Translations under genes and position numbers: made by a program | NCBI RefSeq assembly: GCF_001597725.1 | Contig: NZ_LUTR01000011.1 | Coordinates: 1-64,000 of the forward strand | Direction: 5' to 3' | Source of the DNA: Neptuniibacter marinus | GTDB taxonomy: Bacteria > Pseudomonadota > Gammaproteobacteria > Pseudomonadales > Balneatricaceae | Length of the DNA: 64,000 nt | Notes under the pieces: generated by a model | Told to the model about the DNA's origin: nothing | Database searches by the model: none | What the model saw: the letters and a program-made list of their open reading frames with translations, nothing else | Part shown: positions 40,467 through 54,540 of the stretch, one piece after another | Position numbering within the stretch: the stretch's first letter is position 1 | How the letters are laid out: each line of letters begins with the position of its first letter

Positions 40467-41915
40467 TTACTTACGTTGCATCCCATATTTACGCATTTTT
40501 TCTACTAAGGTCGTTCGCCTAATTTTTAATAACTCAGCAGCTCTGGCAACAACACCCTCATGTACTGCCAATGATTGCTCAATTAAGCTCCGCTCAATAG
40601 CTTCTAAATGAGCCTTAAGATCCAGCCCTTCTTCAGGCAGATGATCTAAATGAGTGGCAGAAGCTATAGCGCCAGTAACAGAGGATGATTCCAACAACTC
40701 TTCCGTATTCGCATAACGCGCAGGATCAGGTTCTTCAACATGCTGAAAACGGGCCGGCAACTCAGAAACACCAACAACGCCATTAGGAAAAAGAATCGCT
40801 AGTCGTTCAGCAAGGTTGGACAGCTCTCTCACATTACCAGGCCAAGGATGAGCCTTTAAGGACTCTAGAGCGCTCATTTGAAATCTGACAGAGTCAAAAC
40901 CTTGTTTTTTTAATCGGCCTAATAACTCATCCAGTAATAGAGGAATATCTTCGGTTCGCTCTCGTAATGGCGGCATCTCAATTGGGAAAACATTTAGGCG
41001 ATAATAAAGATCCTCTCTAAAGCTCCCTTCTTCAATCATCTCTTCAAGGTTTTTATGCGTTGCGGCGATAACACGTATATCCGCTTCAAGTGTTTTAGTG
41101 CCACCGATACGCTCAAACTTTCGCTCTTGAAGCACACGTAATAGCTTTACCTGCATAGATAAAGGCATATCACCTACTTCATCAAGAAAAAGCGTCCCCC
41201 CTTGAGCCAGCTCAAAACGGCCTGAACGACTAGAAACCGCACCCGTAAAAGCTCCCCGTTCGTGACCAAACAACTCACTTTCAAGCAAATCTGCAGGAAT
41301 AGCTCCACAGTTAATCGGCACGAATGGGCCATTTTTACGTACAGAATAATCATGTAGATTCCGAGCAACCACCTCTTTACCAGTACCCGACTCCCCTGTA
41401 ATTAAGACATTAACATCACGTCCCGTGACTTGAGACATAGCCTGCCGCACCAGCCTCATAGACCGACTACTACCGACTAAACTTGAAAAAAGCTCTGAAG
41501 AAGGATTATTCGCATCCCTTGCCCCCAGGGACGGCCGAGAATAAAGTTGAGCTTTATGTAATTGATCGAGTAACTCTTGATAACTAAAGGGCACATTTAA
41601 CTGCCCTGTCACACCACTTTTCAGATCATCAGGCAGCTCAGCGACTTCAGACCATTCATCTAAAGTAACAACAGCAGCATCAGGTGTTTTTTGCTGTAAA
41701 TTGCGTAGCAGCTTTTCAAGGGATATAGGTAATTCACTTTGTCCAAGCAACACTAAAGAGACTTTATCACCTTTGAGTGATTGGTCATCTGACTGCAACC
41801 AATCAACAAATCCATAGAATTCAAACGGGCGACCTAAAAAAGAAAGTGCAGCACGAATTAACTCTCTGCGACTTAGATCATCATCAATAATTAATAGTTT
41901 TGGCTGCGCAGTCAT
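40467..41915 (-). CDS. fleQ: FleQ: flagellar master regulator
   Basis: 482 residues. Degenerate receiver-like FleQ domain (about 1-120, LLIIDDDLSRRELIRAAL but no standard phospho-Asp context), AAA+ domain (GESGTGKEVVARN, GAFTGAV, GGTLFLDEVGDM) and Fis-type DNA-binding end (VVARAAELLKIRRTTLVEKMRKYGM). In Pseudomonas it activates sigma-54 flagellar promoters, binds c-di-GMP and is restrained by FleN. It heads fleQ-fleS-fleR. A FleQ-like site overlaps its own -35. Confidence 0.94.
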   Translation of the reverse strand: MTAQPKLLIIDDDLSRRELIRAALSFLGRPFEFYGFVDWLQSDDQSLKGDKVSLVLLGQSELPISLEKLLRNLQQKTPDAAVVTLDEWSEVAELPDDLKSGVTGQLNVPFSYQELLDQLHKAQLYSRPSLGARDANNPSSELFSSLVGSSRSMRLVRQAMSQVTGRDVNVLITGESGTGKEVVARNLHDYSVRKNGPFVPINCGAIPADLLESELFGHERGAFTGAVSSRSGRFELAQGGTLFLDEVGDMPLSMQVKLLRVLQERKFERIGGTKTLEADIRVIAATHKNLEEMIEEGSFREDLYYRLNVFPIEMPPLRERTEDIPLLLDELLGRLKKQGFDSVRFQMSALESLKAHPWPGNVRELSNLAERLAILFPNGVVGVSELPARFQHVEEPDPARYANTEELLESSSVTGAIASATHLDHLPEEGLDLKAHLEAIERSLIEQSLAVHEGVVARAAELLKIRRTTLVEKMRKYGMQRK

Positions 41916-42161: not shown

Positions 42162-43208
42162 ATGAGATTCATAATTACAGGAGGAGCAGGATTTATAGGC
42201 TCTGCAGTTATCCGCCGCCTACTAAAACACACTAACGATACTGTTATAAATATAGACAAGCTAACCTATGCTGCCAATATAACTGCACATAACTCATTTT
42301 TACAAAACGAACGCTATCACTTTGAACAACAAGATATATGTGATGCTACTGCTATCAGTCATATATTCACCAAATACCAACCTGACGCAGTAATGCATCT
42401 AGCCGCAGAATCCCATGTAGATAGATCAATATCCGGACCAAACGCTTTCATTCAAACCAATATAGTCGGAACTTACACACTGCTAGAAACATGCCGTCAC
42501 TATTGGGCAACACTTAATGCTGAACGTAAATCAATTTTCAGATTCCATCATGTATCAACAGATGAAGTCTTTGGTGATTTATTACCCACCGATACCCCCT
42601 TTACAGAAGAGAGCAACTACAATCCTAGCTCTCCATATTCAGCATCAAAAGCAAGCTCTGACCACTTAGTTAAAGCATGGCAGCGCACTTACGGATTACC
42701 GACTATTATATCCCATTGCTCTAATAATTATGGGCCTTTTCAGTTCCCTGAAAAACTAATTCCTTTAACCATCCTTAACGCTCTACAAGGCAAGAAAATA
42801 CCTATATATGGAACAGGTGATCAAATCCGTGACTGGATCTATGTAGATGATCACGCAAAAGCCTTACTCCAAGTAATCAAACGAAGTGATATTGGAGAAA
42901 CCTATAACATCGGTGGCCAAGAAGAAAAAAAGAACATAGAGGTGGTAAATACAGTCTGCGATCTACTCGAAGAGCTCTGCCCAACCAATATACCCTATCA
43001 CTCCCTTATAACTTATGTCACAGATAGAGCTGGGCACGATAAAAGATACGCTATAAATTCAGATAAAGCCTATTCACAGCTAAACTGGAAACCTGACCAT
43101 TCTTTTAGTGACGGTCTAAGAGAAACTGTACACTGGTACTTAAACAACAGCGATTGGTACAATAACAACAAAGCATCCACCATAAATAACAAAAATAATA
43201 ATGACTAA
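42162..43208 (+). CDS. rfbB: dTDP-glucose 4,6-dehydratase
   Basis: 348 residues, extended SDR family. NAD-binding GGAGFIG at residues 7-13, [21 protein letters not shown] with the catalytic Thr-Asp-Glu, and [11 protein letters not shown] (Tyr-x3-Lys). It makes dTDP-4-keto-6-deoxyglucose. Start has AGGA 7 nt upstream. First gene of the island; rfbA follows after 12 nt. rfbC and rfbD are absent, so the product probably goes to the aminotransferase rather than to rhamnose. The run is visibly A+T-rich. Confidence 0.93.
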
Positions 43209-43220
43209 GAGAGCCAAATT

Positions 43221-44099
43221 ATGAAAGGTATCATTCTTGCTGGCGGCTCAGGAACTCGCTTATATCCCATCACCCGAGCCATCACCAAACAACTCCTACC
43301 CATATATGACAAGCCGATGATCTATTACCCGCTATCAGTACTCATGCTCAGCGGGATACAAGATATTTTAATCATTACGACCCCCGAAGACAACGATAGC
43401 TTTAAACGACTACTAGGGGATGGAAAAGACTTCGGCATAAGACTCAGTTACGCAATTCAGCCTAAACCTGAAGGCTTAGCACAAGCTTTTATTATTGGCG
43501 AAAACTTCATTGGTAAAGACAGCGTATGCCTAGCCCTTGGAGATAACTTTTTTTATGGTTACGGTTTCTCTCCTAAACTACGAAGCGCAGCAGCCAGAAC
43601 ATCAGGAGCAACAATCTTTGGCTATCAAGTCAAAGACCCAAAACCCTTTGGGGTTGTGGAGCTTGATAAAAACCGCAATGCAATCTCCATTGAAGAAAAA
43701 CCCAAAAAGCCTAAATCTAACTTTATCGTCACAGGGCTCTATTTCTATGACAATGATGTTATAAATATTGCAAAAGAAGTAAAACCTTCAGAGCGAGGTG
43801 AGCTTGAGATAACATCTATTAATCAGGCCTATCTCGATAGAGGGGCATTAAAAGTTGAATTACTCGGACGAGGATTTGCTTGGCTGGACACCGGCACTCA
43901 TGGCAGTTTACTAGAAGCCGCGCAATTTGTAGAAACAATAGAAAAAAGGCAAGGCTATAAAATAGCCTGCCTAGAAGAAATTGCCTATAGAAACGGTTGG
44001 TTAAACGAAGAGGACATTCGAAGAATTAGCAAGCCCCTTTGTAAAAGCCATTACGGTGAATATTTATTGAGTATGTTAGATGTCGATACCTTCAACTAG
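43221..44099 (+). CDS. rfbA: Glucose-1-phosphate thymidylyltransferase
   Basis: 292 residues, the normal RmlA length. GGSGTRLYP at residues 8-16, [24 protein letters not shown] and [16 protein letters not shown] are family signatures. It makes dTDP-glucose for RfbB. Its end overlaps the aminotransferase start by 20 nt. Confidence 0.94.
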
Positions 44100-45207
44100 A
44101 CCTTATCTTCCAAACAGACAAATATTAGATAAATATATAAATCGTATCTATGACTCCGGCTGGTTAACCAATAATGGTCCGCTTGTTAACGAGCTAACCC
44201 AACGTCTAGAAGAACTCTTTGAATCGGACCATATCCTGCTGGTTGCTAACGGTACTTTAGCACTGCAGATAGCCTATCAAACGCTCATAAATTCGGTAGA
44301 TGATCAAACGAGTCCCATTGAGGCGATCACTACACCGTTCACCTTTATCGCCACAAGTAACGCATTAAAGTGGGAAGGGATCACACCGATATTTACCGAT
44401 ATAAACCCCACCGACTGGTGTTTATCTGCCAATTCGATTGCAGAAAAAATAAATAAGAACACCCAATTTATTGTCCCTGTTCACGTTTTTGGAAATGCTT
44501 GTCCAATAGAAGAAATTAACGAAATAGCAGAGAAATACGCGTTAAAAACAATCTACGATGCATCCCATGCGTTTGGAATTAAGTACAAAGGTAGAAATAT
44601 AGTTCAGTACGGCGATGCCAGCATTATAAGCTTCCACGCAACCAAGCTGTTTCATACCGTCGAAGGGGCCATGATACGCTTCAAACATAAATCTGACTTA
44701 GCCAAAGCAAAAGAGATCATAAATTTCGGATTTAACGATAATAAAGAACCTTGCAGGCTCGGTATCAATGCAAAAATGAACGAGTTCGAAGCCGCCGTAG
44801 GCCTCTCCATTTTAAATGATATTTCAGACATCATAAAAGAGAGAAATAACATAACTGCGGTTTATCAAGACGAGTTCAAAAACACCCCTTCGGTGATCAA
44901 ATTAAATATAACCAATAACAGTGCATACATGCCTATTCTGCTTGATTCGGAAGCGACACTTTTATCGACTTTAAAAGCCCTAAAGTCACATAACATAGAA
45001 GCCAAACGCTACTTTCACCCCAGTTTAGATACAGTAGAACATCTCAACCCATCAAACAGATGCCCCATATCTCAAGACATCTCGACTAGAATACTGTGCC
45101 TTCCCATTTATAATGGGCTAACGACAAAAGAGATTAAACATATCTGTGAAATCATTAACCACACAATTAATACTCACTCAATAGATAACCTAGATAATAA
45201 CCACTAA
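44080..45207 (+). CDS. VioA-like sugar 4-aminotransferase (DegT/DnrJ/EryC1/StrS family)
   Basis: 375 residues. The PLP-binding Lys is in [16 protein letters not shown] (about residue 190); other motifs are [34 protein letters not shown] and YDASHAFG. The '[13 protein letters not shown]' form is typical of VioA-type enzymes that convert dTDP-4-keto-6-deoxyglucose to dTDP-4-amino-4,6-dideoxyglucose (viosamine). A Fdt- or QdtB-type 3-aminotransferase or another regiochemistry cannot be excluded. It is translationally coupled to rfbA. Confidence 0.82.
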
Positions 45208-45222
45208 CGAAACAGGCGAAAA

Positions 45223-45939
45223 ATGAAGAAGCACGGCCATGTCGCCATAATGCAGCCATATATTTTTCCTTATCTAGGCTACTTTCACTTAATCGAAGCT
45301 AGTGAGCTATTCATTTTTTATGATGATGTGAGTTACATAAAAAAAGGCTGGATTAACAGAAATAGGATTCTGCTCCAGCAAGAACCTAGCCTGTTCACTC
45401 TACCCATTCAACAAGCCAGCCAGAATGTTTTAATTAAGGATACTCTGACTTGCATAGATACACGTTGGAAAAAGAAGTTTTACGCAAAATTAACTCACTC
45501 CTACCAAAAAGCCCCACACTTCACTCAAGTTATGGAGCTCATTGACGCCTCACTCAAACACACTCAAAACGAATCAATAGCCTCCGTTGCAATCAATGCA
45601 ATTCAATTAATTTACCAATACCTAAATCACGATATTACATATAAAAGATCCTCAGACATCTCGCCTCATACACAAGGCATGGACAAAGCAGAACGCCTAA
45701 TCAAAATAACAAAAGACCTAGGCTACACATCTTATCTAAACGCCCCTAGTGGAAAAGAGTTATACAGCAAGGGGGATTTTAAAAACCAAGGTATTGATCT
45801 TCATTTTATACGCAGTCTAGCGTGTCACTATTCTCAGTTTCATCATGATTTCATCCCTTCTCTTTCGATCATTGATGTTTTAATGTTCAATACGATAGAT
45901 GAGACAAAAACACTGTTTCAGTATTTCACGGTAGAATAA
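45223..45939 (+). CDS. WbqC-family protein
   Basis: 238 residues with the WbqC-family start (AIMQPYIFPYLGYFHLI) and YDDVSYIKKGWINRN. The family is common beside DegT aminotransferases in polysaccharide and flagellin-glycan loci. Its biochemical role is not established to my knowledge; modification of the amino group of an amino sugar is the obvious guess. It begins 15 nt after the aminotransferase and ends 10 nt before the sulfotransferase. Confidence 0.8.
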   Translation: MKKHGHVAIMQPYIFPYLGYFHLIEASELFIFYDDVSYIKKGWINRNRILLQQEPSLFTLPIQQASQNVLIKDTLTCIDTRWKKKFYAKLTHSYQKAPHFTQVMELIDASLKHTQNESIASVAINAIQLIYQYLNHDITYKRSSDISPHTQGMDKAERLIKITKDLGYTSYLNAPSGKELYSKGDFKNQGIDLHFIRSLACHYSQFHHDFIPSLSIIDVLMFNTIDETKTLFQYFTVE

Positions 45940-45949
45940 GGATGACACT

Positions 45950-46777
45950 TTGAGCAACAATACAGATACGTTGATTACTGTTGCGATACATGGGGCTCCG
46001 AGGTCTGGCACCACGTGGATTGGGGAAATAATCAACAGCTCACCTAGCACCCTATACCGCTATCAACCGCTATTTTCATACGCTCACAAAGACTTCTTAA
46101 CACCTGCATCAACTCAGGGAGATATTGACAGCTTTTTCACGAGATTAAAGTCTTGCAACGATAACTTCACCGGCCAGCTAGAACAAAGACATAAGGGGAT
46201 ATTGCCAGTATTCCAAAAGGAGCAGATAACACATATCGCTTATAAGGAGGTTCGGTATCACAACATACTAGCCAACCTTATGGCAAAAAAGCATGATCTG
46301 AAGCTCGTCACCATCATCAGAAACCCATTATCAGTGATAAATTCATGGTTGAAGGCACCAAAAGAATTCAGGGCCGATCTTAACTGGAATATGCTTAATG
46401 AATGGCAATATGCTACGAAGAAAAATCAAAATAAGCCGGAAGAATACAATGGATTTGAAAAATGGAAAGAAGCCAGCACCTTATTCCTCGACTTAAAAAA
46501 AGCGTACCCAGACAGGGTCCATTTGATTACATATTCAGCTTATTTAGCCAACCCAACCCAAGAAACAAAATTACTATTTAACTTTCTAGACTTAAGCTAC
46601 ACAGATCAAACTATAAGATTTCTAAACGAAAGCACAGGCCAATACAATGTAGACCCCTACTCAGTCTACAAAGCACAACAATCTGATGATGCATGGAAGC
46701 AAGAGCTCCCCAAAGAAATATCTGAGAAAATCCAAAGTAACCTTAAAGACACACGATTAGAAAGATTTTTAACATAG
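45950..46777 (+). CDS. Sulfotransferase family protein 1
   Basis: 275 residues starting at a TTG (AAGGA 7 nt upstream); no earlier ATG fits. The 5'-phosphosulfate-binding loop HGAPRSGTTWIGEI is at about 14-27, and the 3'-phosphate motif VTIIRNPLSVINSWL at about 118-132. These are the PAPS-binding signatures. The acceptor is unknown; the context suggests a flagellar glycan. An alternative is decoration of another surface sugar. No membrane segment is seen, so it should act in the cytoplasm. Confidence 0.78.
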   Translation: MSNNTDTLITVAIHGAPRSGTTWIGEIINSSPSTLYRYQPLFSYAHKDFLTPASTQGDIDSFFTRLKSCNDNFTGQLEQRHKGILPVFQKEQITHIAYKEVRYHNILANLMAKKHDLKLVTIIRNPLSVINSWLKAPKEFRADLNWNMLNEWQYATKKNQNKPEEYNGFEKWKEASTLFLDLKKAYPDRVHLITYSAYLANPTQETKLLFNFLDLSYTDQTIRFLNESTGQYNVDPYSVYKAQQSDDAWKQELPKEISEKIQSNLKDTRLERFLT

Positions 46778-46859
46778 CATTCAAACCAACTAAATATAGT
46801 TTATTGAAGACGCTCCATAATACAATCAAAGCAACCCCGTTATCCGTACAGGTAAGCAT

Positions 46860-47846
46860 ATGTCTTTCACATTTTTAATGTGCTCCGAACGCTCAGGTAG
46901 CAATTTAATTACCAAACTACTGAATGCTCACTCAGAGATCTGCGGCCCTTCAACTAAGCACCTAATCAACCCCGTTGCTCGGAACTTATTTAGATATGGC
47001 GATTTATCAAATCAACGCAACTGGTATGCCCTAATAGACGACATTCATATACTGCTATCTGCGGGCTTCTCGATTTGGAAAAAGGAGTTCAAAAAGTCAG
47101 AACTGAAAGGGCTAGCACCCTGTGGGGACATTGTTTCTTTACTCAAAAATATTTTCATTGAGGAAGCATCTGAAGACGGAAAAGACAACATTTTCATTAA
47201 AGAGAACCATCTATACGAATTTCTGCCTTTTCTGCTAATAAACTTCCCAGAGGCTAAATTCATTTACCAAACCAGAGACCCAAGAGACATGGCATTATCG
47301 TGGAAAAAAAATAAAAGCCATCCTGGGGGCATTATTGCTGGCGCCAAACAATGGTCCTATGACCAACAACGATTTCTAAGTAACTACCATATACTACGTA
47401 AAGTAAATAAAGCATTTCTTATCAAATATGAAAATTTAATAGACAACCCCGAAGAAGCTTTATCTGCAACCTTGTCATTTTTAGGGCACCAATTCCAACC
47501 ATCTATGCTCAAATTCAATAATGACGAAACAACCCGTCTCAATGCACAAATACAGGAAAGCTGGTCCAACCTGTCGCGCCCCATAATAACGAATAACAGT
47601 GCGAAGTATACAGACGAACTCACGTCAGATGAGATCTCACTTGTGGAGAAAATATGCTATTTCGAGATGAAAGAACTTAACTATACACCGATGAACAGCC
47701 TAGAATATTTAGACACGATTTCATCGCAAAGGATTAATATGCTTGAGCAACAAGAAAGACAAGATATTCCTGCTCAGCGCTCGGCAGGCACGTTAAAAAG
47801 CATGGATGCTAAACGAAATTTCTATCGGCATGAACATGAAAATTAA
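46860..47846 (+). CDS. Sulfotransferase family protein 2
   Basis: 328 residues. PAPS-loop LMCSERSGSNLITKLLNAH at about 6-24, and 3'-phosphate motif FIYQTRDPRDMALSWKKNK at about 137-155. This is not a duplicate of the gene before it: the loop is of the S-E-R-S-G-S-N type and the acidic/His region differs. It is the last gene of the island, 82 nt after sulfotransferase 1, and convergent with the OGT-like glycosyltransferase. Confidence 0.78.
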   Translation: MSFTFLMCSERSGSNLITKLLNAHSEICGPSTKHLINPVARNLFRYGDLSNQRNWYALIDDIHILLSAGFSIWKKEFKKSELKGLAPCGDIVSLLKNIFIEEASEDGKDNIFIKENHLYEFLPFLLINFPEAKFIYQTRDPRDMALSWKKNKSHPGGIIAGAKQWSYDQQRFLSNYHILRKVNKAFLIKYENLIDNPEEALSATLSFLGHQFQPSMLKFNNDETTRLNAQIQESWSNLSRPIITNNSAKYTDELTSDEISLVEKICYFEMKELNYTPMNSLEYLDTISSQRINMLEQQERQDIPAQRSAGTLKSMDAKRNFYRHEHEN

Positions 47847-47892: not shown

Positions 47893-49671
47893 TCATACTT
47901 TTTCAATATAACGTAACCACATATCACTAAAAGCACTTTCTAAATCTTTTGCCATTAAGGAACCATTGTATAACCGTGATTCACTAACCTGCTCCCTTAA
48001 CCCTTTACGCACCTCTGATAAGGCATGAATATCTGCACAAACTTTATTGGCAATCTCAATATATTCACCTTCGTTCTCTGCAACAAACTGATCCAAGCCT
48101 GCCTTATATAAAACTGCTGCCCCCCGTCGAGAGATACGATCACTACCCTGTAAAGAGATATAAGGCACACCCATCCACAGCGATTCTAAATTAACCGTTC
48201 CCCCATTAAATGGGAAAGGGTCCAAACCTATATCAATACGCTTGTACGTATCAAAGTATAGCTCCCTTGCTTCTCCTATTTCGCAGTCAATCCTCTCCGG
48301 ATCAACCCCAAGTAAAGCAAACCGATCTTTAATACTTCTCGTAGTCGCTGCATCACAAAAAGCAGTATCTTTAATCAATAACCTTGCAGAGACATTCTCC
48401 TTAAGAATTGTCGACCAGAGCGCAACAACGTCATCGTTCAGCTTGGTAACCTTATGTAAGCAGCCAAACGTTATATACCCATTTTTAAGCGCGGGCAGGT
48501 CCCCTACAGACACATCAGTATCTGGCGGAAAGAAGCAACCTGATATATTTAAGTGCCAAGGCGCCTCAACATAAAAGGGTTTAATAGAATCAGGGAAATT
48601 CCATTGATCACCAATGAAATAATCGATCTCAGCGACCCCTGTGCTTGCAAAAAAACCCATCCACGAGATTTGAATAGGTGCAGCCTTCCAAGCAAACAAA
48701 GGTAATCGGTTATGCGCAGTATGCCCTGACAAGTCAATTAGTATATTGACCCGATCATCATAAATCGTCTGTGCGATATCGCTATCTGATCGGTGAGCAA
48801 TTTTACTCCACTTAGTAAAACAGGGCTTTAGCTCTTCAGTGACTTCATCTTCGTCGGAATAGTTACTATAGGCAAGTAACTCGACTTTACTGTTATCAAG
48901 TTTATCGATCCAACTCTTCAAAAAATAAGCGACCGAATGTTTCCTTAAGTCACCAGAAACAAGCCCTACTCGAATTTTCGGCTTATCTATCTTTTCTAAT
49001 AACGGCCACTCTGTATAAGGTTCTGCTTTTGCGCGCGCAGCTTCACCATAAACTTGGGCTTTAATAAGGTATTCTTCTGAAGACACAGAGGGGTCGGACG
49101 CCATACACATTAATATATTACTAAAAATATCTAGGCGGGAAGGATCTAGGTCATAGGCAGCTTGATAACAGGGAATAGCTTTTAAAAGTTCTGAGCGTTT
49201 ACGATAGACACTCCCCAAATTATTATGGGCCTTAATGAGTTTTTTATCGTATTTTAACGCTGTTTTGTAAGCCTTAGTCGCTTCTTCATATCGCCCCATA
49301 CTCGACACAACATCCGCATAACCTAGATGCGCTACTGCTAAGGATGGTTCGAGTTTGACCGCTTCCGAAAAACAGTGGCTCGCTTTATTTGCATCACCTA
49401 GGCCTTTAAATGCCAAACCTAAGTGGTGATTAACCTCAGCATCCTTTGGCTTTAAACCTAGAGCCTTTGCTAATAAAAGCTGCGCTATTTTGTAATTCTG
49501 CTCTTGAAGAAGAATAATACCGAGAAAATGCAATGCATAGAAATTACTATCATCGAGCTGAAGTACTCTTTGAAATAAAGCTTTAGCCTGTGGAAAATTA
49601 GAGTTCTGATAACTTGAAATCCCAAGAGCGAGAGCCTTTTTTACAAGATCATTTTTCTGATTCACAGGCAA
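47893..49671 (-). CDS. TPR-OGT (SPINDLY-type) protein O-glycosyltransferase
   Basis: 592 residues. About five TPR repeats in the first 200 residues, then a glycosyltransferase family 41 domain: GLVSGDLRKHSVAYFL (His base, about residue 240), DLSGHTAHNRLPLFAWKAAPIQISWMGF (read in pieces), TFGCLHKVTKLND and DPFPFNGGTVNLESLWMGVP. It transfers a sugar to Ser/Thr of a cytoplasmic protein. Its place 29 nt after fliS in the flagellin operon makes flagellin the likely target. Start is TTG 49671 or GTG 49665, neither with a clear ribosome site. Confidence 0.88.
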   Translation of the reverse strand: MPVNQKNDLVKKALALGISSYQNSNFPQAKALFQRVLQLDDSNFYALHFLGIILLQEQNYKIAQLLLAKALGLKPKDAEVNHHLGLAFKGLGDANKASHCFSEAVKLEPSLAVAHLGYADVVSSMGRYEEATKAYKTALKYDKKLIKAHNNLGSVYRKRSELLKAIPCYQAAYDLDPSRLDIFSNILMCMASDPSVSSEEYLIKAQVYGEAARAKAEPYTEWPLLEKIDKPKIRVGLVSGDLRKHSVAYFLKSWIDKLDNSKVELLAYSNYSDEDEVTEELKPCFTKWSKIAHRSDSDIAQTIYDDRVNILIDLSGHTAHNRLPLFAWKAAPIQISWMGFFASTGVAEIDYFIGDQWNFPDSIKPFYVEAPWHLNISGCFFPPDTDVSVGDLPALKNGYITFGCLHKVTKLNDDVVALWSTILKENVSARLLIKDTAFCDAATTRSIKDRFALLGVDPERIDCEIGEARELYFDTYKRIDIGLDPFPFNGGTVNLESLWMGVPYISLQGSDRISRRGAAVLYKAGLDQFVAENEGEYIEIANKVCADIHALSEVRKGLREQVSESRLYNGSLMAKDLESAFSDMWLRYIEKV

Positions 49672-49700: not shown

Positions 49701-50099
49701 CTAATCGTTCTGAAGCTCAACCGGCATACCGGACCAACCCTGTCTAATCTCTAGCATGAGTCCCATTACATCTTGAATTTTGTCGGCGCTATTCTCGCGA
49801 TTAGCCAGAATTAATTGACGTATCATGTAGTTATAAAGTTCATCAAGGTTAGCAGCTACTTCACCGCCCTTTTCCAAGTCCAAAGCACCCTTCAAGCCAA
49901 CAATAATATCTGAGGCTTTATTCAAATGTTCAGTTCTTTCTTCAATCTGTTTACGTTCGATGGAACCTTTAGCTTTGGCCAAAGAGGTCAACGCCCCTTC
50001 TAATAACATCGAAATAAGCTTATGTGGACTCGCTGTTTCTACAGTCGCCCTTAAATCTACACTTTTATACTCTTTAAGGGCATTTAAATTAACACTCAT
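49701..50099 (-). CDS. fliS: FliS: flagellin export chaperone
   Basis: 132 residues, helical bundle, with YKSVDLRATVETASPHKLI at the N-terminus and LYNYMIRQLI. It binds the flagellin C-terminus in the cytoplasm, prevents polymerisation and docks it on FlhA. It lies 55 nt after fliD. Confidence 0.93.
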   Translation of the reverse strand: MSVNLNALKEYKSVDLRATVETASPHKLISMLLEGALTSLAKAKGSIERKQIEERTEHLNKASDIIVGLKGALDLEKGGEVAANLDELYNYMIRQLILANRENSADKIQDVMGLMLEIRQGWSGMPVELQND

Positions 50100-50154: not shown

Positions 50155-52272
50155 TTAGCTGCTGCTAGCGGTAAATGGTAACTGTTCCAACAAACCGTCC
50201 AACTGACTACCCGTACTTTGGAAACTACTCACTATTTGTTCCATGGCTAAAAACTGCGCGGACAAACGCGTTTCTAACTTTTCCATCTTACGGTCTAATT
50301 CAATTCGATCATCGGCAACATCCTCTAACGCTTTGTTAATATTATCTTCGCGAAGCTGAATACTACCGGAAGAAGACAGAAAGCTCGCGATTAACTTATC
50401 AAGCTCACCAGCAAAACCGCGTGAGAAATCTACTGAAACAGTACCAGCAGCAACCGCATTTTCGCCGATAGTGAAATTCAAACCATAAGGATCAGAGTCA
50501 ATTTCAGGCAGAAGAACATTACCAGAGCCAAATCCAGCAACACCATCAATAGTGCCCACTACATCAACACCATTATCAGATTGTGTAACAAATCCTAGCT
50601 CTGCTATATCTGCACCAAAATCAGTGGCATCAAACGCGACATTTGAAGCGGCACCATAACTTCTAGATATAAAAGAGAACTGATCGGTCGCCTCATCATA
50701 AGCCACATCAACAGCAACGTTCGCAGCGCTGATATTACTATCGCCATTAATCAAAGATTGTAAATCTGCACGAATTTCGTCTGCAGTTGTATAGCTACCC
50801 GTCAAGGTAATTGTATCTGACTCAATACCATCGACCGTTACTTTAAAAGAAAGATCTAATAAGCTAGCATCAGCAATCGTAACTGTATCTGCAGCACTAT
50901 CAAAACCAATATTACCACCATCAACCATTGCATCCGCATCCACCGATGCTTTTTCTGGGTCCGTAGTAATAACAACATCGTAATTCCCAGGAACTGTGCC
51001 AGAAGAATAACTCCCTACAGAGACAGACACCTCATCACTTGATGACGCGGTGTTAGTTGCAAACAGGGTTTCAACTAGAGCAAAATTCTCTTCCATTGCT
51101 CGACTAAAATCTTCTTCATCAATCGACAGCGTCCCATCGAGCTCTGTACGTATGCCTACATTTGTTAACGCAGTAAAACCTTCATCGATACCCGGTACTA
51201 TGGAGCCTATTGTTGATCGAATCTGATTAAGCAAAGCTTTAGCTGTACCATCGGTGGACAAATCACCCTTTACGGTCTGGTTATCTTCATCCGTACTATA
51301 TCCAGTTAGATTTTGTGCTGTTTCATAAAACAGATTATAAGCTTCAACAAAATCTCTTATAGCTTGCTCTGCTGTAGAAGTATCTTCACTTACCGTAAAA
51401 GTAAAACTACTACCCGGCTCCGCCTTATTTAAGGAAAAGTTAAACCCTTGAATAACATCACTAATGTCATTTGTTTCTCGAAATACAGTGAGGCCATTAA
51501 CTTTTAATTCAGCATCTTGTGCTTGTTGAGTTTCTGTAACCTGTGATGATTCCGTTTCATTAAACTCAAAAACACTTAAACCGGTTGCATCGCCTTTCGT
51601 TGCATCATCACTGCTCACCCTAAGCGCATTATCCGCACCCGATGGAGCAGTTAATAACAACTGATACTGCCCATCAACCAATAAAACCGATGCTTGAACA
51701 TCTGCATCTTCCTCATTAATTTTATCAGCAATATCCTGTAACGAATCAGATGCATCAACGGTAATATTTAATGCAGCACGCTCATCATTAGTCGCAAACG
51801 AGTACGGATCTTGATCCGCATCAGCATCAGCACCCGGATCAATATCTTCGTCGTAGGTCCAAGTACCAAAACTAATAGTCAGCGTACCTGCTTCATTCAA
51901 GGCTTGATCTTTATCAGAGTATGCCCCCGTCGCTAAAGACTGGGCTTGAGCAACCTCAACAACCTCTATTTGATAAGTACCAGTTTGAGCACCCGGATCG
52001 ACTGAGTTAGGCGTGATAACATCGGTATCAGGAAATGAAACACTACGCGCATTAAAGGTGTCATTATCAGAAAGGGGATCAAGCACGGCAGCTAACTCAG
52101 ACAAACTACTCTGTAAGGTTCCGTATGCTGATATCTGCGCTTCCAGTTTCTCCTCTGTAGCATCTAAGCGCTCCTCTCTAGGAGCCTTTTCTATTTCTAC
52201 AAGCTGGGAAACAAGGCTGGAGGTATTGATACCAGAACCGGCTCCCAGTGAGCTAATAATACTATCACTCAT
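50155..52272 (-). CDS. fliD: FliD: filament cap protein, enlarged
   Basis: 705 residues, well above the usual 450-500. The N-terminal domain (SSLGAGSGINTSSLVSQLVEIE) and C-terminal coiled coil (LREDNINKALEDVADDRIELDRKMEKLETRLSAQF, in pieces) are normal. The centre carries FliD_N/flagellin-hook IN repeats (TITLTGSYTTADEIRADLQS; ALNITVDASDSLQDIADKINE) that account for the growth. It caps the filament and folds flagellin. It lies 48 nt after flaG, with a small hairpin between. Confidence 0.93.
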   Translation of the reverse strand: MSDSIISSLGAGSGINTSSLVSQLVEIEKAPREERLDATEEKLEAQISAYGTLQSSLSELAAVLDPLSDNDTFNARSVSFPDTDVITPNSVDPGAQTGTYQIEVVEVAQAQSLATGAYSDKDQALNEAGTLTISFGTWTYDEDIDPGADADADQDPYSFATNDERAALNITVDASDSLQDIADKINEEDADVQASVLLVDGQYQLLLTAPSGADNALRVSSDDATKGDATGLSVFEFNETESSQVTETQQAQDAELKVNGLTVFRETNDISDVIQGFNFSLNKAEPGSSFTFTVSEDTSTAEQAIRDFVEAYNLFYETAQNLTGYSTDEDNQTVKGDLSTDGTAKALLNQIRSTIGSIVPGIDEGFTALTNVGIRTELDGTLSIDEEDFSRAMEENFALVETLFATNTASSSDEVSVSVGSYSSGTVPGNYDVVITTDPEKASVDADAMVDGGNIGFDSAADTVTIADASLLDLSFKVTVDGIESDTITLTGSYTTADEIRADLQSLINGDSNISAANVAVDVAYDEATDQFSFISRSYGAASNVAFDATDFGADIAELGFVTQSDNGVDVVGTIDGVAGFGSGNVLLPEIDSDPYGLNFTIGENAVAAGTVSVDFSRGFAGELDKLIASFLSSSGSIQLREDNINKALEDVADDRIELDRKMEKLETRLSAQFLAMEQIVSSFQSTGSQLDGLLEQLPFTASSS

Positions 52273-52788: not shown

Positions 52789-54540
52789 TTACTGAAGTAG
52801 AGATAGAACTTGCTGTGGTGCAGCGTTAGCCTGAGCCAACATCGCTGTACCGGCTTGCTGTAGAACCTGCGCTCTTGATAGTGCAGCGGATTCTGAAGCA
52901 AAATCAGCATCTTCAATACGTGAACGGGCAGCCGAAACGTTTTCAGATACGTTTGACAAGTTATTCACTGTAAAGTCTAGACGGTTACTAACCGCACCCA
53001 AATCACCTCGAGTGGAGTTAATCTGCTCAAGTGCAGAATCGATGATATCTATAGCTTCCTGTGCACCATTAGCAGTTGAGATATCGATACTTGATACGCT
53101 GCCACCAGCACCTGCTGCTGCATTGGTTTCATTAAGACCAAAGATAGTCTCCATCGCAGCTTCATCACCATCCTTGTATGAGATAGAGATATCACCACCA
53201 TCAACGGAGGTCAGTTTTAAAGCATCAGTTATGCCATTAGCACCATCTAGAGACGCTGTCACACCTGTTTCATCTGTGTAAGAGTTCAACCAAGCAACCA
53301 AGTCACTTTCTTCACCAGCAGTGCTGTTACCGTCATAATCAACACTTGAATCGTACTCACCAAGCGTCACACCATTTATAGTAACCTGGCCTGCATCAAC
53401 ATCAGCCTGCGCTTGTGCTTGATAGCCTGTTACAGTACCCGCTTCTAAGCGCGTATCTAAACCAACAACATCAGCATGAGCAGCATCATTATATTCAATG
53501 GTTACAGCATCGCCAGAATCTGCAGAGATGGTAAGCGCAGCTTCGAACGTTGCATTTGTAAATGTACCAATTGCATCATTTAACGTAGCACCAGTTGCAC
53601 TAAGCGCAACATTATCAGCACCTTCCACAGATACAGTTAGGTAGCCATCATCATTGATCTCAGCCTGTATAAGGCCGTTAGATACTTCGTTAGCTTTATC
53701 CGCTAACTCTTGAAGGGAGCCCGTCTCAGATACCTGGAACGTCTGCACATCGCCGTTCGCCATTGTCACTGCAAACTGAATGTTTTCACCTGAACTCACA
53801 ATACCATCGCCCGATGTTGTCGCTGTAGCTTCAGCCAATGTACCAACAGTTATACCTGCAACGTTTGAGTTAACTGTATCAATCGCATCCTGAAGCACTG
53901 TTTCACCGGACAAATCACCGATATCAATACCGTTGATAGACATTGTCTCTGTGCCGTCAAATGTCTGCAACTGAGTCAATAGGTCATTGCCCGAATCTGT
54001 TGCACCAATAATAGATGCACCCGTACCATTACCTAAAGATTGAGTATCTGTCGCACCAATGTTTAGCGCGATAGTTTCATTGGCATCAGCACCCGCTTGC
54101 AGATCAACTTGACCTAAGGTTCCATCAAGAATATTAAGGCCGTTGAATTTAGTTGTTTCAGAGATACGATCAATCTCAGCAATCAACTGCTGAACCTCGG
54201 CATCTAGGGTTGCACGGTTACCATCATCGTAAGTACCGTTGGCAGACTGGATAGACAGCTCACGCATACGCTGTAGGATGTTAGTTGTTTCGTCCAACGC
54301 ACCCTCAGCCGTTTGAATTAGAGAGATGCCATCGTTTGCATTTCGTACCGCTTGATCCAAACCACGAACCTGAGAGGTCATGCGGTTAGAGATTGCCAAG
54401 CCCGCTGCATCATCTGCTGCAGAGTTAATACGCTTACCACTAGATAAACGCTCCATTGCTTGGTTCTGATCGTTCTGTGAAAGCGTTAAGTTACGCTGAG
54501 CATTCAGCGACATAATGTTTGAATTAATTACCATTGACAT
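52789..54540 (-). CDS. fliC: Flagellin
   Basis: 583 residues, the only flagellin in the window. Conserved N-terminal D0/D1 (INSNIMSLNAQRNL, ERLSSGKRINSAADDAAGLAI) and C-terminal D1/D0 (SRIEDADFASESAALSRAQVLQQAG, VLSLLQ). The central 200-440 region is Thr/Asp-rich and variable, with many Ser/Thr as possible O-glycosylation sites. It lies downstream of a good sigma-28 promoter, with GAGGAG 9 nt before the ATG. It is probably the substrate of the OGT-like enzyme. Confidence 0.97.
   Translation of the reverse strand: MSMVINSNIMSLNAQRNLTLSQNDQNQAMERLSSGKRINSAADDAAGLAISNRMTSQVRGLDQAVRNANDGISLIQTAEGALDETTNILQRMRELSIQSANGTYDDGNRATLDAEVQQLIAEIDRISETTKFNGLNILDGTLGQVDLQAGADANETIALNIGATDTQSLGNGTGASIIGATDSGNDLLTQLQTFDGTETMSINGIDIGDLSGETVLQDAIDTVNSNVAGITVGTLAEATATTSGDGIVSSGENIQFAVTMANGDVQTFQVSETGSLQELADKANEVSNGLIQAEINDDGYLTVSVEGADNVALSATGATLNDAIGTFTNATFEAALTISADSGDAVTIEYNDAAHADVVGLDTRLEAGTVTGYQAQAQADVDAGQVTINGVTLGEYDSSVDYDGNSTAGEESDLVAWLNSYTDETGVTASLDGANGITDALKLTSVDGGDISISYKDGDEAAMETIFGLNETNAAAGAGGSVSSIDISTANGAQEAIDIIDSALEQINSTRGDLGAVSNRLDFTVNNLSNVSENVSAARSRIEDADFASESAALSRAQVLQQAGTAMLAQANAAPQQVLSLLQ

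Follow-up and report, generated by a model that had tools for sequence, protein, structure and literature searches.

Two predicted sulfotransferases in a putative flagellin-glycosylation island of Neptuniibacter marinus, with relatives at flagellar and surface-polysaccharide loci

The closest reported systems to a flagellin carrying a sulfated sugar are the taurine-capped flagellin of Clostridium difficile and the sulfated archaellins. Type B flagellin of C. difficile bears a sulfur acid on a glycan with an aminodeoxy sugar, described as a sulfonated peptidylamido-glycan (PMC5207245). It differs from the case considered here in its taurine cap, which has a C-S bond, and the authors of a further paper state that no gene studied corresponds to a glycosulfotransferase (PMC5207246). 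In Halobacterium salinarum, two sulfotransferases, Agl30 and Agl31, modify one glycan at two positions, and this glycan is also present on the archaellum, but the system is archaeal and N-linked, contains uronic acids, and includes one membrane-bound enzyme (PMC11980604). On the side of the sugar, Pseudomonas syringae and P. aeruginosa PAK use an aminotransferase to make dTDP-viosamine, which is N-acylated and found on flagellin glycans, with the genes in an island; acylation involves VioB, VioR, VioS, and an acyl carrier protein, methylation VioM, and transfer VioT, and the string “sulf” is absent from that paper (PMC3927599). FlmG of Caulobacter resembles the glycosyltransferase encoded here in being a cytoplasmic flagellin O-glycosyltransferase with TPR and GT-B parts, but it acts with pseudaminic acid, and “sulf” has 0 occurrences in that paper (PMC7591256). 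Flagellin glycosylation is also cytoplasmic in Aeromonas (PMC4065374), where a +80 Da signal on the flagellin glycan was assigned to phosphate (PMC7874193).

Among the listed titles and abstract openings of open-licence papers, we found no report of a bacterial flagellin whose glycan bears a sulfate ester. A 2014 review of flagella glycosylation in Gram-negative bacteria does not contain the string “sulf” (PMC3958885), and a sulfotransferase and a glycosylation island stand unconnected in another paper (PMC3639832). A sulfated flagellin sugar would be a new variety of flagellin glycosylation and not a new kind of system.

The window, which is the whole stretch of 64,000 nucleotides that was analysed, lies on contig 12 of the N. 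marinus genome (G000; 3.45 Mb, 117 contigs, 99.87% complete) and contains six tightly packed plus-strand genes at 42162-47846 (Table 1). The gene order is fleQ, the island, a TPR/GT41 gene, fliS, fliD, flaG, and fliC, with minus-strand genes, fleQ and the TPR/GT41 gene, bordering the island on either side; fliD and flaG are presumed identities taken from position and recall, and fleR and fleS are likewise presumed from recall. No gap within the island exceeds 82 bases, and ST1 starts 10 bases past the wbqC stop. Promoter-like sites number 10 against 18.5 expected, terminator-like sites 8 against 5.1 expected, and the arrangement of the six genes appears operon-like. GC content is 37.7-41.6% in the island genes and 43.7-45.9% in fleR, fleS, fleQ, and fliC, and it is also low in the GT41 gene (40.9%) and fliS (40.6%). 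The sugar genes thus adjoin genes for flagellin, its chaperone, and a glycosyltransferase, the setting of a flagellin-glycosylation island. The preliminary description had placed these genes between fleQ and a fliS-linked OGT gene and had named RfbB, RfbA, an aminotransferase, and a WbqC-family protein. Profile matches to fleQ, FliS, the TPR/GT41 protein, and flagellin agree with that location, the equivalog cut-offs of TIGR01181 and TIGR01207 are both exceeded, and the other two families pass Pfam.

Table 1. Features of the island and its flagellar surroundings, with positions in the window.
Feature	Position	Strand	Evidence
fleQ, flagellar master regulator	40467..41915	-	PF06490 FleQ 52.2 bits, cut-off 22
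rmlB/rfbB, dTDP-glucose 4,6-dehydratase	42162..43208	+	TIGR01181 481.9 bits, cut-off 365.1
rmlA/rfbA, glucose-1-phosphate thymidylyltransferase	43221..44099	+	TIGR01207 495.8 bits, cut-off 360.65
DegT/DnrJ/EryC1/StrS sugar aminotransferase	44080..45207	+	PF01041 272.6 bits
WbqC-family protein, predicted BshC-like fold	45223..45939	+	Pfam
ST1, predicted PAPS-dependent sulfotransferase	45950..46777	+	PF00685, PF13469, both PAPS motifs
ST2, second distinct predicted PAPS-dependent sulfotransferase	46860..47846	+	PF13469, CurM match, clade apart from ST1
TPR + GT41 (OGT-like), predicted flagellin O-glycosyltransferase	47893..49671	-	PF13844 116.2 bits, TPR models
fliS, flagellin export chaperone	49701..50099	-	TIGR00208 100.3 bits, cut-off 53.75
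fliD	50155..52272	-	Position; adjoins fliS and fliC orthologues in relatives
fliC, flagellin, likely acceptor	52789..54540	-	PF00669 164.8 bits, PF00700 100.9 bits

We lean towards the reading, which we hold to be rather probable, that the island makes and decorates a polar flagellin sugar that ST1 and ST2 would sulfate. The main alternative, unlikely though well above negligible, is that another surface glycan, O-antigen or exopolysaccharide, is modified by the island or by its sulfotransferases, and that the cassette merely landed beside the flagellar genes. Neither the ORFs nor Pfam matches include an initiating transferase, flippase, or polymerase in the island, which abuts the fliS-linked GT41 gene, and both points argue for flagellin. 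For the alternative it can be said that, of 4 TIGR01207 matches in the genome, only the island rmlA exceeds the cut-off, so that the genome's only RfbA-type gene at that level is in the island.

The aminotransferase earlier labelled “VioA-like” is a sugar aminotransferase by Pfam, and its best NCBIfam model is DesI at 233.8 bits, below the cut-off of 650. The best solved structure is 2po3 (E 1.6e-48), which we take to be DesI, and the enzyme is predicted to make dTDP-4-amino-4,6-dideoxyhexose. The predicted fold of the WbqC-family protein is BshC-like over nearly the whole model. BshC, the bacillithiol synthase, joins cysteine to an amino sugar, and this reaction together with the predicted fold suggests that WbqC may acylate the amine made by the DegT enzyme. 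The likeness is one of predicted fold: identity is 11%, BshC with its 540 aa exceeds WbqC more than twofold in length, and BshC is unlisted for WbqC both in a profile search of solved-structure sequences and in a Pfam scan at E <= 10. We propose that WbqC N-acylates or amino-acylates the 4-amino sugar and, because of its predicted BshC-like fold, read the sugar as probably N-acylated, perhaps amino-acylated. None of the six island ORFs is a VioB, VioR, VioS, or acyl carrier protein acylation gene, and VioM and VioT are likewise absent from the island; WbqC and the two sulfotransferases stand where Pseudomonas has its Vio genes.

The WbqC family was called functionally uncharacterized in a 2017 paper (PMC5532660). 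Relatives of the island protein, up to 43% identical, also occur on 76 viral contigs (L352-L427). A tie between WbqC and DegT on these contigs was considered and rejected, since a DegT gene lies within 2 kb at 7 of the 76 loci (directly adjacent at 5). For the other enzymes, viral contigs yielded no GT41 or ST1 relatives and one ST2 relative.

The coordinates given earlier for two sulfotransferase ORFs are exact, and both ORFs are above Pfam cut-offs. ST1 (275 aa, TTG start) matches PF00685 at 48.7 bits (cut-off 22) and PF13469 at 40.1 (cut-off 27); ST2 (328 aa, ATG start) matches PF13469 at 64.6 bits (cut-off 27) and PF00685 at 33.4 (cut-off 22). The two motifs claimed for each are also present: in ST1, RSGTT begins at residue 18 and RNPLSVINS at residue 124, and in ST2, RSGSN begins at residue 11 and RDPRDMALS at residue 139, stretches that we take to be the 5'-phosphosulfate loop and the 3'-phosphate motif (R-x7-S). 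Of 227 control ORFs (240-350 aa) drawn from 80 sampled flagellin loci, none has both motifs. Against solved structures, ST2 matches the CurM sulfotransferase (4gbm, E 1.1e-5). The maximum hydrophobicity over 19-residue windows is 0.71 in ST1 and 1.16 in ST2, neither having a strongly hydrophobic stretch of that length, and both are predicted to be soluble, cytosolic enzymes that transfer sulfuryl groups from PAPS. The cytoplasmic site of flagellin glycosylation in Aeromonas and Caulobacter fits soluble PAPS-using enzymes.

Two less probable readings concern the enzymes themselves. It is improbable that flagellin or its sugar goes unsulfated because the two sulfotransferase-fold proteins lack activity or catalyse something else. 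No solved-structure sequence is a significant relative of ST1 (best E 0.72), and its single-sequence structure model is poor (pLDDT 34.3), which leaves room for that reading; against it, the PAPS motif residues are invariant in alignments of relatives (A2 with 4 sequences, A3 with 13), three genomes (G086, G606, and G712) have an APS kinase gene no farther than about 11 kb from relatives, and the per-site selection described below is purifying. Still more remote is sulfation by one of the enzymes of the flagellin protein, for example on tyrosine, and not of the glycan. ST2 does match protein-tyrosine sulfotransferases weakly (E 0.004 and weaker), but CurM is its better match, and ST1 and several ST2 relatives accompany sugar genes.

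A simple codon count between G000 and a sister species, G003, with rmlB left out, gives 9 synonymous and 1 non-synonymous differences in ST1 (per-site ratio 0.03) and 6 and 4 in ST2 (0.17), which are by this count under purifying selection. The corresponding values are 12 and 6 for degT (0.14), 4 and 4 for wbqC (0.26), and 6 and 0 for rmlA. Synonymous divergence per site is 0.027-0.053 in the island against 0.27 in fleS and 0.53 in fliS, suggesting that the island was recently exchanged or transferred and has been constrained since. This low divergence relative to fleS and fliS, seen between the window and L081, indicates that it was probably swapped between the two sister species by recombination.

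Of the 11 genomes of the genus, 6 have a fliS-linked GT41 gene. In the three congeners in which the slot from fleQ to this gene was read through, it holds different sugar cassettes in which no sulfotransferase was detected: rmlB-rmlA-DegT in G004, joined by an oxidoreductase and a GT2/radical-SAM protein, and CDP-sugar-like and NeuB-like genes in G002 and G001, several of them named by eye from sequence starts. Our own sulfotransferase profile found ST1 and ST2 in the flagellar stretch of G003 and no sulfotransferase in those of the nine other congeners, one of which (G007) is short at a contig end. Since the slot is a variable sugar-cassette slot in congeners, a flagellin glycan would be the natural product of the island, and the filling of the slot by other sugar cassettes speaks against a mere landing site.

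The genome of G003 also provides a point for the O-antigen or exopolysaccharide reading. On its contig 12 (L088:9919-12582), a NeuB-type polysaccharide cluster (NeuB by eye) has in succession an ST2 relative, another sulfotransferase, and WbqC. The cluster mirrors the flagellar island with different sugars.

PAPS is likely to be available to the island enzymes, although it is not made by the island, as sulfate-activation genes lie on contig 43. The single APS kinase match in the genome is part of a CysN-APS kinase fusion there, preceded by an ORF with a PAPS_reduct-type domain that is presumably CysD-like. The same contig encodes an inositol-monophosphatase-family protein, presumably CysQ-like, and a transporter with a sodium:sulfate-symporter match whose best match is the citrate-transporter family. 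The ORF before the CysN-APS kinase gene (L112:239-1957, 573 aa) combines an N-terminal helix-turn-helix stretch with its PAPS_reduct-type domain, which may be a real fusion or come from an over-long start. Contig 43 also carries an exopolysaccharide-type locus, recognised by eye (L091, L111, and L112); of its three sulfotransferase-like genes one falls short of the Pfam cut-off, and this locus may make a sulfated exopolysaccharide and have a PAPS supply of its own. That the lone APS kinase lies outside the island, on the contig of this locus, counts against the flagellin reading.

Close relatives of the two enzymes are uncommon. In the relatives set, own genome included, ST1 has matches at E <= 0.001 in 8 of 144 genomes, the strong ones being confined to the own genome, G003 (99%), and G086 (29%), and ST2 has matches in 21 of 144; class-wide, again including the own genome, the counts are 31 and 89 of 369, mostly weak matches. 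A PF13469 gene is found somewhere in 199 of 293 genomes of the order. No sulfotransferase was detected within about 10 kb of flagellin at 80 loci, one in each of 80 further genomes of the order, these being the first 80 in the list with the own genome excluded; several loci end at contig ends (shortest 3,040 bases), and the span would miss sulfotransferases farther out, as in G086. The profile used, which drew on 12 sequences, detected 31 of the 32 loci that served as positive controls; about six of those 32 had supplied profile sequences.

Outside the genus, sulfotransferases nonetheless stand at several flagellin loci, where by gene content they are rare but recurrent. In G086, from another genus of the same family (L350), a FlgL-like gene (by eye), flaG, fliD, fliS, and fliC are present, and fliC is followed by two MptE/Maf-like proteins, NeuB, an APS kinase (PF01583 216.9 bits), the ST1 relative about 20 kb from fliC, DegT, and WbqC; this island runs to a PseB-like gene beside fleQ, with about 30 kb between fliC and fleQ. 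In G430, from another family (L333:9514-18043), a FlgL-like gene, an ST2 relative (36%), another sulfotransferase, a 1465-aa protein with GT2 and methyltransferase parts, and fliC follow one another, and the interval from the FlgL-like gene to fliC is likely to be a flagellin glycosylation locus. A genome of the same genus, G666, has FlgK, FlgL, and an ST2 relative before the contig ends. Halomonas sp. CUBES01 has a GT41 ORF 74 bases past fliC that includes a Sulfotransfer_4 domain (30.6 bits, cut-off 22.8). The fusion (L182:9893-13867, 1324 aa) comprises TPR, GT41, a middle region, the sulfotransferase domain, and a C-terminal region. G188 and G279 have relatives that match the middle and C-terminal regions in one frame, without a match to the sulfotransferase part. 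Among the matches listed in 293 genomes of the order, those to the sulfotransferase region fall in frames of 190-353 aa, and none is joined to its glycosyltransferase part. A weaker GT41-sulfotransferase fusion, with a domain found by our own profile (E 9.1e-7) and without a Pfam match, occurs together with a separate sulfotransferase gene less than 10 kb from fliC in a gammaproteobacterial MAG (L168).

As for the neighbourhood search proposed in the preliminary description, for sulfotransferases beside fliS-linked OGT genes, sulfotransferases do stand by flagellin loci in G086, G430, G666, and Halomonas sp. CUBES01, and there is no excess at FliC-linked GT41 genes. GT41 as a marker of sulfated flagella was rejected, as among at least 79 GT41 loci a sulfotransferase is present at 2 of 12 with a FliC hit versus 7 of 67 others (Fisher p 0.62), and among the matches listed sulfotransferases are equally common near and away from flagellin.

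A tree of 34 sequences places ST1 and ST2 in separate clades, as expected for the two different sulfotransferases claimed earlier. ST1 groups with the enzymes of G086 and G466 (99/97) and ST2 with those of G692, G430, G666, and G632 (97/84), and a third group (100/99) consists of the second enzymes of G430, G577, and G003 contig 12, but is unsure because long branches meet there (a program warning). In the wider ST2 clade (100/98), 5 of the seven loci have a second sulfotransferase in the stretch that was read (G000, G003 contig 12, G430, G577, and G632); G692 is without one in 13.9 kb, and G666 ends at a contig end. ST1 relatives are accompanied by DegT and WbqC at all 3 loci of full-length relatives with 29-36% identity (G086, G466, and G402, one of them broken) and at none of the 6 loci where the match is weaker.

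Outside the genus, ST1 has its nearest relative (36%) in G466, and this enzyme belongs to an O-antigen-type cluster of rmlBACD, DegT, WbqC, a methyltransferase, and the sulfotransferase beside a putative flippase (by eye, no Pfam match), an arrangement that favours modification of a glycan other than that of flagellin. A further ST1 relative is found in an O-antigen-type cluster in G402, where the locus is broken, and ST2 relatives lie away from flagella in G692, G632, G577, and on contig 12 of G003. The enzymes are thus not flagellum-specific, and, by gene content, the cassette is a rare one that is common to flagella and surface polysaccharides. Sulfotransferases elsewhere without flagellar genes, which had been named as counting against a flagellar role, are accordingly half in evidence, with some relatives in O-antigen-type loci and others at flagellin loci. 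For the sulfated flagellin sugar proposed earlier, the non-flagellar relatives weaken the case, but the sulfotransferases at flagellin loci of unrelated genomes support it and argue against an O-antigen or exopolysaccharide product.

Our preferred reading remains that flagellin is the product. It draws on gene content, family membership, motifs, selection, and recurrence at other flagellin loci, all observed in sequence, and from these we infer what each enzyme does, in which order, on which acceptor, and that flagellin is what results. RmlA and RmlB would form dTDP-4-keto-6-deoxyglucose, the DegT enzyme would place an amine on C4, and WbqC would join an acyl group or amino acid to this amine. 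The TPR/GT41 protein would attach the sugar to Ser/Thr of FliC while this is still in the cytoplasm, ahead of its export. With PAPS supplied by CysD/CysN-APS kinase-type genes outside the island, ST1 and ST2 would each sulfate a different position of the sugar or acyl group, their substrate being either the nucleotide sugar or the glycosylated flagellin. On the best reading, flagellin would carry a sulfated, N-acylated 4-amino-4,6-dideoxyhexose.

More tentatively, and with doubt about the whole, some marine Gammaproteobacteria may have sulfated flagellin glycans, often made with two enzymes, that derive from mobile DegT-WbqC-sulfotransferase cassettes moving between flagellar and O-antigen loci, with WbqC as a BshC-like amino-acid ligase giving a sulfated aminoacyl-amino sugar. 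The prediction for WbqC offers a testable function for a family whose relatives extend to viral contigs. If flagellin is sulfated as proposed, +80 Da flagellin signals read as phosphate merit re-measurement, and sulfate esters would be added to the chemical repertoire of bacterial flagellin glycans. The filament surface of these marine bacteria would then be strongly negative, like that of haloarchaeal archaella, with possible effects on filament bundling, phage adsorption, and recognition.
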